NCBI GenBank assembly: GCA_902797055.1
Contig: CADBRT010000145.1
Span: 1-32,486, forward strand
DNA from: an uncultured Spirochaetaceae bacterium
GTDB taxonomy: Bacteria; Spirochaetota; Spirochaetia; Treponematales; Treponemataceae
Length of the DNA: 32,486 bases
Direction: 5' to 3'
Under the pieces are notes generated by a model. The model was given only the letters and a program-made list of their open reading frames with translations, did not search any database and had not been told where the DNA came from. A program made the translations under genes and the position numbers. The number at the start of each line of letters is the position of its first letter. Position 1 is the first letter of the stretch. Shown in pieces: positions 20,422 to 23,428 of the stretch.

Positions 20422-21003
20422 TTAAAACCGTTCCATGTCCGTCATGTCCAGGTTGTACTGTTTTTCAGATTCAACCGTGCTTGGCGGACCGTGTCCCGGC
20501 ATGATGACCATTATGTCGGTTTGGGAGAACACTTTTTCCTGAATTTTTTCCATCAAAAGTTTCCTGGAGTATTTGTTGGATGTTTCACCGATGATTCCTG
20601 ACGTGATGGTGTCTCCGGTAAAAAGCACGTTGCCAATCTTATATACCATGCTGTCTGCGCTGTGTCCCGGTACGGAGTAGTACTCCACATCCATACCGGC
20701 AACGCGTATGCGTCCGTCCCCTCGGAGCACAACGGTCTGATTGCCTGCTACATCGTAGTCCGCCGCGTAAACATCGGGTGAATATATTTTCTTGAGCGTA
20801 GCAAGCCCCTTTACATGGTTCGTGTGGTTGTGGGTTACCAGTACGGTTGTCAGCTTGTACGGTCCTGCCTCAATCTGGTTTATCAGCTCTTTGTTTATTT
20901 TCGCAGGGTCGACTATCAAAGCTTCCATTACGGAGGGGTCATCGTTTATGATGACATATCCGTTTGTAAACTCTTCGATGCTCAAGTGGAAGTATATTTT
21001 CAT
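20422..21003 (-). CDS. Metallo-beta-lactamase-fold hydrolase with altered metal motif
   Basis: The 193-residue protein is a short glyoxalase-II-like MBL-fold hydrolase: VDPAK, THNHTNHVKGL (58-63), VPGHSADSM (His114), LFTGDTI (Asp131) and MPGHGPPST (His171). The canonical HxHxDH is HNHTNH here: Asn62 replaces the aspartate that binds the second zinc. This could leave a single metal site or change specificity. Substrate is unknown; thioester hydrolysis would be the default guess from family. Its ATG overlaps the TGA of the pentapeptide gene (ATGA at 21000-21003), and a GAGGAG lies about 12 bases upstream inside that gene. Translation of the two is therefore coupled. Confidence 0.85.
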   Translation of the reverse strand: MKIYFHLSIEEFTNGYVIINDDPSVMEALIVDPAKINKELINQIEAGPYKLTTVLVTHNHTNHVKGLATLKKIYSPDVYAADYDVAGNQTVVLRGDGRIRVAGMDVEYYSVPGHSADSMVYKIGNVLFTGDTITSGIIGETSNKYSRKLLMEKIQEKVFSQTDIMVIMPGHGPPSTVESEKQYNLDMTDMERF

Positions 21004-21680
21004 AGGAGTGTCGTCTCCTCATCTTCGGTGAAGTTTTCTGAAAAGTCTCCCATCAAGCCGCCTTTATTTCTGTCGATGAGTGCTTCCCTTGTATTTGAAA
21101 GCTTGAACGAAACTCCGTCTCTCATGGAACTGTAGAACACTGTTTTTTTCAGGTTGCAGTTAGTCATCGAAGTGTTTATGAGCACGGCTTTGATAAACCG
21201 GGTGTTGTACAAATCGCTGTCATCAAAACTGCTTTGGTAGGCGGTTATGCCGTTGAAGTTGTTGTGAATCAAATCGCTTTCGGTAAAGAGCGCATGTACG
21301 AACTTGGAACCGGAAAAGGAAGAGAACTGGACGTTGCTTTTTATGAGATTGCAGTCAGTCATGGTTGAAAAATCGAACATACACATTCTCGCCCTCATGT
21401 TTATGGCACGTGTGTTTGTAAAGATGCAGTGCTGGAGATTGCAGCCGTAGAATTTTTTTCCACTCAAATCCAAGTCTGAGACTGTTATGCCGGAAGCGTT
21501 CAATCCCACGATTTTTTCATGGGAAAGAATATAGTTCCTCATCTTGTAAAGGATTTCTTCGGCATCTTTCTGGTGTTCCAGACAAAACCCCGGTGCTTCG
21601 CTCAGATTTCCGGAAGAATCGAACGAAGAAAGGGCTTGTTTGCGGCAGCCCGGGTACATACATGGATTGAAAGCGTACAT
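21000..21680 (-). CDS. Pentapeptide-repeat protein with N-terminal Cys/His cluster
   Basis: The 226-residue protein begins with CMYPGCRKQ, followed by FCLEHQ, a C-x4-C ... C-x2-H pattern that could bind zinc. From about residue 60 it has degenerate pentapeptide repeats, A/C/S-(D/N)-(L/F)-x-x (DLDLSGKKF, CNLQHCIF, CNLIKSNVQF, SDLIHNNF, SDLYNTRF, CNLKKTVF), forming a right-handed quadrilateral helix. Function is unknown; such proteins range from gyrase protection to scaffolds. The frame is open to 21716, but a TTGACT/TAAAGT promoter ends 7 bases before ATG 21680, so I start there. It is translationally coupled to the MBL-fold gene and divergent from murI. Confidence 0.8.
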   Translation of the reverse strand: MYAFNPCMYPGCRKQALSSFDSSGNLSEAPGFCLEHQKDAEEILYKMRNYILSHEKIVGLNASGITVSDLDLSGKKFYGCNLQHCIFTNTRAINMRARMCMFDFSTMTDCNLIKSNVQFSSFSGSKFVHALFTESDLIHNNFNGITAYQSSFDDSDLYNTRFIKAVLINTSMTNCNLKKTVFYSSMRDGVSFKLSNTREALIDRNKGGLMGDFSENFTEDEETTLL

Positions 21681-21687
21681 GACTCCT

Positions 21688-21716
21688 ACTTTAAGGTATT
21701 GCATACGATTAGTCAA
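21688..21716 (-). promoter_or_regulatory. Sigma70-like promoter of the pentapeptide gene, leaderless
   Basis: Minus strand TTGACT (21711-21716), 17 bases, TAAAGT (21688-21693), ending 7 bases before ATG 21680. AGGAG is present in those 7 bases but only 2 bases from the ATG, too close to be a normal Shine-Dalgarno. The site interlocks with the murI promoter. Confidence 0.65.
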
Positions 21717-21727
21717 ATGGATAAAAT
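21699..21727 (+). promoter_or_regulatory. Sigma70-like promoter of murI, nearly leaderless
   Basis: TTGCAT (21699-21704), 17 bases, TAAAAT (21722-21727), ending 9 bases before ATG 21737. Its -35 lies inside the spacer of the opposite promoter, and the opposite -35 lies inside its spacer. Confidence 0.65.
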
Positions 21728-21736
21728 TGGATTCCT

Positions 21737-22567
21737 ATGGTTTCACGGGTAGACTTTGCATTTATGGACAGCGGGACGGGAGGCATCCCGTATATGATGG
21801 AGTTGAAGAAAAAGTCTCCGTCATCGCGCTGTGTTTACCTTGGCGATACGGCTCATTTTCCCTACGGCGAAAAAACGCCGGAGCAGGTTGAGCGCTCTGC
21901 AGCAGAAACCATTCGAAAAATTGTAGCGAAATGGAATCCTGGTGCACTGGTCATCGCCTGCAATACCATAAGCGTAACGGCGCTGGACGGGCTTCGCAGG
22001 CAGTTTCCGTCTTTGCCGATTGTCGGTACGGTTCCTGCCATACGTCTTGCAGCCCGAATGACACGGAACAAAAGAATCGGGCTTTTGGCGACAAATGCGA
22101 CTGTTCGACATCCGTACTGCAAACGTTTGATCCAGTCATTCGCTTCTGACTGTACTGTGTACAGCCGGGGAGACCCGGATCTTGTGGCATTTGTGGAACA
22201 CGATTTGTTCACCGCGACTGCAGAAGACAGGCGGGCTGCTGTAACACCTGCGCTTGATTATTTTGAGTCGAATGACTGCGATACGATTATTTTAGGCTGT
22301 ACCCATTTTACCCATATTGCACAGGATATTCAGAACGCTGTGCCGGAAGGGGTGAGTGTCATCGACAGTCGCGACGGGGTTGCCAATCAGGCGCTGCGTG
22401 TTTGTCCGGTGATTGGAACCGAATCGGGAAATGATATGGAAAGAGGTGCCAAATCCCTGCCGCCCGACACTGGATTTTATGTTACCGCTTTGCGGTCTGA
22501 AAAGGACAGCGGGGAGTATCAGAAACTCTCCTCTCATTTCAGAATTCCGTGGTGCGGTGTCTTATGA
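21737..22567 (+). CDS. murI: Glutamate racemase
   Basis: The 276-residue cytoplasmic enzyme interconverts L- and D-glutamate for peptidoglycan. It shows the MurI landmarks FMDSGTGGIP (Asp11), YLGDTAHFPYGEK, the two catalytic cysteines Cys75 (VIACNTIS) and Cys188 (LGCTHFTH), and the following His190. Length is typical. The start is fixed by a promoter whose -10 ends 9 bases before the ATG, leaving no Shine-Dalgarno. It converges with the FMN-oxidase-like gene, the stop codons overlapping by 6 bases. Confidence 0.93.
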   Translation: MVSRVDFAFMDSGTGGIPYMMELKKKSPSSRCVYLGDTAHFPYGEKTPEQVERSAAETIRKIVAKWNPGALVIACNTISVTALDGLRRQFPSLPIVGTVPAIRLAARMTRNKRIGLLATNATVRHPYCKRLIQSFASDCTVYSRGDPDLVAFVEHDLFTATAEDRRAAVTPALDYFESNDCDTIILGCTHFTHIAQDIQNAVPEGVSVIDSRDGVANQALRVCPVIGTESGNDMERGAKSLPPDTGFYVTALRSEKDSGEYQKLSSHFRIPWCGVL

Positions 22568-23428
22568 TTGGTGCTGTTTCTGATATTCCTTACAGACTTC
22601 CGTAATAAAGGGACGTGCCTTTAGAATTGTTGTGACGCCGTAAGAAGCTGCTTTTGCGGCATCGCTATCTGTTCGTATGCCGCCGTCAATCCACAGTTCC
22701 CCGCAGTTCTGTCGAAGAATTTCTGCATTCTGCTCTAAAAAGTGGGCAGTGCTGCCGATTCTGTTTTCCACCCGTCCGCCGTGGTTTGAGATATATACGA
22801 TGTCAGGCTTTACTTCTTTTACAACAGCTATATCGTCATCGGTAAATATTCCCTTGATAGCAAACTGCAGTCCTTTTCCATTGAAGCGCTGCTTTAACTG
22901 TGAAAGTTTTGAGGCATCCTTCTTTTCCAAATGAACAAGATTGCGCATGGTGATGATGTTGTAGGCGTCGATGTCAATGCCGCCGATTTCTGAAACGCCG
23001 TCTGCCCAGTCGATCCGCTCAAATATCTTGTCATTGGGGTAGGGTTTTATGAAGACTGCAGCCTTTATGCCGGGATGTGTAGTTTGTACTTCCTTTACAG
23101 CCGCAATGCCGTATTGCAGCTTAAAGTCAGGAGTTCCGTCTCCGATAGACAGTTTAACTCCTGCATCCGCGCAGTGGCGGATAAGGTCAAAGTAAAACTG
23201 TTTTTCATCAGGATATCCGACATTTTCAACGGCTCCGGTGATAGGAGCCAGTCTTGTGTCTGTATGAGTTGCGGTGTGTGTTCCATCAGGAATTTGTTTC
23301 CAGGCTTCGCAGTTCAATATGAAGTTCCGGCTTGCATTCCAGCCTCCCATGCCAGGCATCTGCCCGACACAGCCATATCCGTCGCATACATCACAAAAAT
23401 GACAATTAAAAGATAGTTTGTCGTTCAC
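22562..23428 (-). CDS. FMN-dependent alpha-hydroxy-acid oxidase/dehydrogenase family protein
   Basis: The 288-residue protein has an N-terminal Cys cluster (CHFCDVCDGYGC, about residues 9-20) followed by MPGMGG. It then has a TIM barrel of the FMN_dh type: FIKPYPNDK, ISNHGGRVENR and DGGIRTDSDAAKAASYG with ARPFI at the phosphate site. Anaerobe members with this Cys-rich opening are annotated as alpha-hydroxy-acid (lactate) oxidising proteins. The true substrate is unknown, and the Cys cluster could hold iron-sulfur. The GTG start is 2 bases after the pfk stop, with GGAG 8 bases upstream inside pfk, so the genes are translationally coupled. Confidence 0.8.
   Translation of the reverse strand: MNDKLSFNCHFCDVCDGYGCVGQMPGMGGWNASRNFILNCEAWKQIPDGTHTATHTDTRLAPITGAVENVGYPDEKQFYFDLIRHCADAGVKLSIGDGTPDFKLQYGIAAVKEVQTTHPGIKAAVFIKPYPNDKIFERIDWADGVSEIGGIDIDAYNIITMRNLVHLEKKDASKLSQLKQRFNGKGLQFAIKGIFTDDDIAVVKEVKPDIVYISNHGGRVENRIGSTAHFLEQNAEILRQNCGELWIDGGIRTDSDAAKAASYGVTTILKARPFITEVCKEYQKQHQS

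Follow-up and report, generated by a model that had tools for sequence, protein, structure and literature searches.

Interlocked near-leaderless promoters predicted between murI and a pentapeptide-repeat gene in a lineage of Treponema

Divergent promoters that draw on the same DNA have been described in both chromosomes and plasmids. In Escherichia coli, bidirectional promoters are built around a shared -10 element, and their divergent starts mostly lie 18, 10 or 23 bp apart (Warman et al., PMC12825309); in five of these the two directions left each other unaffected at basal activity, and the opposite RNA was clearly repressed only under strong activation of one direction. Pc and Pr, the overlapping promoters of plasmid pLS20 (PMC4207663), are of very unequal strength and are controlled by a regulator and DNA looping; there, the -10 and -35 of each promoter fall on the -35 and -10 of its partner. 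Leaderless genes are known from the same phylum as the locus studied here: the survey by Zheng et al. (PMC3160421) gives them for 6 of 18 Spirochaetes genomes, at a mean of 3.9% of genes.

Here, we analyse a divergent gene pair in a spirochaete window, by which we mean the whole stretch of 32,486 nucleotides under study. With good confidence, we consider that the 56-bp gap between murI and a gene for a pentapeptide-repeat protein would hold two housekeeping-sigma promoters interlocked back to back, and that these are inherited, near-leaderless and active in parallel, competing only under strong activation. The overlap is old and conserved among a set of Treponema from gut and rumen, and it probably leads to mild competition and not to mutual switching-off.

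The divergent genes and their promoter elements

The right-hand gene, murI (21737..22567, + strand), encodes a glutamate racemase of 276 aa, the product matching Pfam PF01177 and scoring 186.5 bits with the equivalog model NCBIfam TIGR00067 (cutoff 146.65). Both catalytic cysteines are present in the translation, in IACNTIS and LGCTHFT (the CNT and GCTH motifs), and the gene is the sole copy in the genome; a search of genome contigs by peptide patterns found no close relatives of murI. An FMN-dependent dehydrogenase-like protein is encoded convergently at 22562-23428, overlapping the end of murI by a few bases. The left-hand gene (21000..21680, - strand) encodes a pentapeptide-repeat protein of 226 aa (Pfam PF13599/PF00805), and directly downstream of it – as in relatives across the order – lies the gene for an MBL-fold hydrolase of 193 aa (mbl, 20422..21003, - strand; Pfam PF00753). 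The pentapeptide stop and the MBL start overlap as ATGA (21000-21003), an arrangement that suggests translational coupling.

The pentapeptide start codon, ATG 21680, is conserved in the 48 orthologues examined, bar one GTG, and a longer reading frame from TTG 21716 was rejected because homology begins at ATG 21680. The N-terminal part of the protein (21574-21680) carries a CCCH set, C7-C12-C33-H36, that is invariant in 37 sequences. The protein model (pLDDT 89.6) is the usual solenoid, with residues 208-226 disordered in the monomer model. The Qnr equivalog model NF033086 gives 23 bits against a cutoff of 240, and a search for viral relatives of the protein found none.

Only 56 bases separate ATG 21680 from the murI start at ATG 21737, as the first-pass annotation had reported, and direct reading also bears out its interlocked promoters at 21680-21739 in coordinates, spacers and nested -35s. 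For murI, the -35 hexamer TTGCAT (21699..21704, + strand), whose TTG is invariant in 11/11 interlocked orthologues, is followed after a spacer of 17 by the -10 hexamer TAAAAT (21722..21727, + strand), ending 9 nt before the ATG. For the pentapeptide gene, the -35 hexamer TTGACT (21711..21716, - strand) lies inside a conserved 9-mer, TAGTCAAAT (21710-21718, + strand), and the -10 hexamer TAAAGT (21688..21693, - strand), again at a spacer of 17, ends 7 nt before the ATG. Both have the sigma70-type form (TTGnnn, a spacer of ~17 bp, TANNNT) in the window and in the 48-genome profile, and they are overlapping divergent promoters in that their elements share DNA, with each -35 in the spacer of the other. 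The geometry of the 40-bp interlocked block (21688..21727) is symmetric, the pattern ANNNTA-N5-TTG-N12-CAA-N5-TANNNT being its own reverse complement; this pattern has a single match in the 2.52-Mb genome, at the murI/pentapeptide gap, and zero in controls, and a pattern search finds it again at the orthologous site of relatives.

The region taken by itself is less telling. A consensus scan returns 8 promoter-like sites where 9.0 are expected in shuffles, the two promoters match the consensus at only 8-9 of 12 positions, and that of murI (8/12) falls below the scan's threshold and goes unlisted. The single sequence being no better than chance, the case for promoters rests on comparison between genomes. 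An absence of excess sites, and an SD-like AGGAG (21683-21687) 2 nt from the pentapeptide ATG, are what might be seen if the elements were chance look-alikes in AT-rich intergenic DNA and the real starts lay elsewhere, e.g. inside coding regions; against this stand the conservation of spacing and position over 48 genomes, the single genome-wide match, the decay of particular elements after gene loss (described below), and the fact that AGGAG is unconserved among relatives, all of which make such an origin extremely improbable. SD-led translation of the pentapeptide gene from AGGAG was rejected for that same lack of conservation, and the motif is probably incidental. Given the comparison, the predicted interlocked promoters are beyond chance.

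Leaderless position and the ancestral gene cluster

To profile start-codon distances, 48 intergenic regions were extracted from genomes of the order. TANNNT stands 6-7 nt before the start codon on the right-hand (znr/murI) side in 40/48 and on the left-hand (pentapeptide) side in 39/48, and at most other distances in 0-5 of 48 genomes. A TTG at a spacer of exactly 17 occurs in 18/25 right-hand promoters of the genus and 11/19 of other families, and in 16/28 and 12/17, respectively, of the left-hand ones; at other spacers it is near zero on both sides. Since a -10 box 6 nt upstream of the start codon implies that transcription begins at the codon, we predict leaderless transcripts for both genes order-wide. 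In the window the pentapeptide -10, at 7 nt, falls within the leaderless range (~6-7 nt from the start), and the murI -10 is 2-3 nt further out than in relatives, so that a 2-3 nt leader on the murI mRNA is likelier than none. These distances agree with the first-pass annotation, in which both transcripts have a negligible leader or none. Both mRNAs would begin at the initiation codon or at most ~3 nt from it – leaderless for pentapeptide-mbl and near-leaderless for murI – and the predicted starts fall at ~21681 (- strand) and ~21734 (+ strand), ~53 bp apart. Leaderless expression appears to be a minor genome-wide mode and no peculiarity of this pair, because, of 187 ORFs sampled over 273 kb of the window's genome, 13 are preceded by TTG-17-TANNNT at the leaderless distance, compared with 1.8 at control positions.

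Why murI should be linked to the pentapeptide/MBL pair was unexplained in the first-pass annotation; the association goes back to an ancient cluster, found order-wide and also in further families of the class. The comparison took in 59 relatives, spread over five families of a single order; every one of these genomes has both murI and the pentapeptide gene, and in most the two are divergent neighbours. In most relatives the gap is 320-490 bp and holds a further gene, znr, which lies immediately upstream of murI and on the same strand (1208-1483, + strand, in locus L005), and the order mbl-penta <-> znr-murI recurs in four genomes from other families of the class (G064, G107, G186 and G197). 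This spread points to mbl-penta <-> znr-murI as the ancestral arrangement. The znr product is ~92 aa long with eight invariant cysteines (C2, C5, C20, C23, C30, C33, C44 and C61) and a DKERxNFCDxF motif, and its family is widespread in Spirochaetia; Pfam gives only sub-threshold zinc-finger matches, with no family above cutoff, and solved structures give weak zinc-ribbon matches only. The possibility that the 320-490 bp gap encodes an RNA was discarded, as Rfam found none and znr is present there. A MurI-pentapeptide-YacG cluster of gyrase regulators is improbable, as znr has no YacG match and the models do not identify the pentapeptide protein as Qnr/MfpA.

znr was not found in the window's genome, of which the assembly is 91% complete, and it is certainly absent from the locus, so murI appears to have taken over the znr promoter. 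In five genomes where murI adjoins the pentapeptide gene (L086, L092, L096, L099 and L101), znr has been relocated elsewhere; the relocated copies have TANNNT 6 nt before the start in 2/5 (G023 and G004) and at 9 nt in one, and that of G007 has an SD-like GGAGG in place of TANNNT. A phylum search gave pentapeptide matches in two genera of the same family (g21 and g22) that begin only at profile position 39-44; znr has no match in these genomes.

Rearrangements among the relatives act as natural experiments on the two promoters. In G026, ~40 extra bases lie between them and both still read TTG-17-TANNNT; the pentapeptide promoter retains TAGTCAAA after the separation, and this motif therefore belongs to that promoter. 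The pentapeptide gene of G020 and G211 has lost both murI and znr as neighbours; there the right-hand -10 is gone and the pentapeptide promoter is intact, its -35 motif included, a pattern in which each -10 shares the fate of its own gene. These cases also bear on whether the pentapeptide promoter alone might function, with transcription of murI starting at an upstream promoter within the pentapeptide coding sequence or at some weak site. The murI promoter is the weaker match of the two (8/12) and its 9-nt spacing to the ATG is unlike that of relatives, but TTG-17-TAAAAT is intact after the loss of znr and the right-hand -10 decays where there is no gene to use it, and we judge a single working promoter very improbable.

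History of the interlock and probable mild competition between the genes

The gap-free interlocked geometry is identical in 11 genomes of the genus: counted from the pentapeptide ATG, the left -10 occupies 7-12, the right -35 18-23, the left -35 30-35 and the right -10 41-46, the layout in the window being offset by one base. Across these 11 orthologues, conservation peaks in the four promoter elements; the T, A and T of the murI-side -10 and T1, A2 and T6 of the pentapeptide -10 are invariant in 11/11, and columns 30-37, around the pentapeptide -35, are conserved in 9-11 of 11. At the level of sequence, comparison shows promoters, geometry, leaderless position, conservation and gene loss alike. 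G011 is a twelfth genome with the block, its pentapeptide start 26 bp further off and preceded by an SD-like GAGGTG. The interlock is also present in a sister genus (G148) and in ~20 named Treponema loci, many of the same species and including Treponema parvum (L160); the named relatives are Treponema, T. parvum and T. bryantii among them.

A tree of three concatenated proteins, which was quick and has some weak forks, places the interlocked state in both main clades, and by parsimony the interlock would be ancestral at the root of the genus, with direct adjacency of murI to the pentapeptide gene derived through ~7 changes. The blocks of three genomes that are both interlocked and murI-adjacent (G000, G031 and G007) resemble one another somewhat more than expected, and promoter capture may conceivably have happened twice instead of three times independently among them. 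The ancestral pair, with the pentapeptide gene facing znr-murI, would have kept its own leaderless promoter on each side throughout the order, and in the genus ancestor the gap would have shrunk to ~52 bp. Two 35-bp promoters with 6-nt lead-ins are too long to lie side by side in that space, which would have forced the interlock; in the window's lineage znr would then have been lost from the locus, leaving murI on the znr promoter.

Each polymerase would cover roughly -55 to +20, and the view that two polymerases are unable to occupy both sites at one instant is supported sterically. The further proposal of the first-pass annotation, that the genes are expressed in mutual exclusion or at least compete, stands in its weaker form, mild competition being likelier than mutual exclusion. 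Within the genus, several losses of the interlock have left both promoters in place (G026, G024 and G033), from which it follows that interlocking is not required; elsewhere in the order, other families have these two promoters 60-150 bp apart. This repeated loss, the middling promoter matches and the E. coli precedent together favour parallel expression with mild competition. We infer the actual start sites and the co-expression of the two operons on this footing: polymerases would alternate at the site, both operons would be expressed in parallel at basal strength, and one would depress the other only when strongly activated.

A two-way switch, in which polymerase at one promoter blocks the other so that the genes alternate, perhaps with a regulator at TAGTCAAAT, would draw on the ancestry of the interlock in the genus and its retention in many species, and on the role of overlapping divergent promoters in the pLS20 plasmid switch (PMC4207663). 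The conserved stretch of TAGTCAAAT also exceeds what a -35 box needs, and as a putative regulator site it may permit stronger cross-control. We nevertheless think a switch unlikely, because G026, G024 and G033 gave up the interlock and kept both promoters, other families hold the same promoters well apart, E. coli bidirectional promoters do not compete at basal strength (PMC12825309), and the pair has no regulator gene. More doubtful still is that the block has been a dedicated ratio-setting switch since the origin of the genus, tying murI (or znr-murI) inversely to pentapeptide-mbl. In other bacteria, gyrase is inhibited by MurI and by some pentapeptide proteins (PMC10886550). A functional link is thus conceivable, and such a switch, if it existed, could let the pair keep the supply of cell-wall precursors in balance with DNA supercoiling.

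Comparison with described systems

Parallel expression from interlocked promoters, the reading we prefer, is set here in a conserved natural series of interlock, separation and partner loss, from which the cost or benefit of promoter overlap can be read in evolution and which is directly testable. The locus also points to leaderless expression of cell-wall cluster genes throughout a spirochaete order, and brings to light an ancient cluster of four genes, one of them for a small eight-cysteine protein that Pfam assigns to no family.

The pentapeptide protein has the solenoid fold common to the gyrase-binding proteins MfpA and Qnr (reviewed in PMC10886550) and differs from them in its N-terminal CCCH; it may also differ at the C terminus, where the monomer model shows no ordered dimerisation helix. 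The leaderless signal of Zheng et al. (PMC3160421), TANNNT ~12 bp before the start, agrees with that found here in both sequence and position; here, both members of a divergent pair would be leaderless and their promoters interlocked, a combination undescribed in the part of that survey considered. As in pLS20 (PMC4207663), the same DNA is taken by two opposite promoters, although the geometry is another one and the pair here comes without a regulator gene. The E. coli bidirectional promoters (PMC12825309) likewise consist of short pseudo-symmetric DNA that is bound in two orientations and not jointly, whereas at the murI/pentapeptide gap each promoter has its own -10, the -35s are interlocked and the predicted starts are ~53 bp apart, which places the locus outside the strict definition of a bidirectional promoter.
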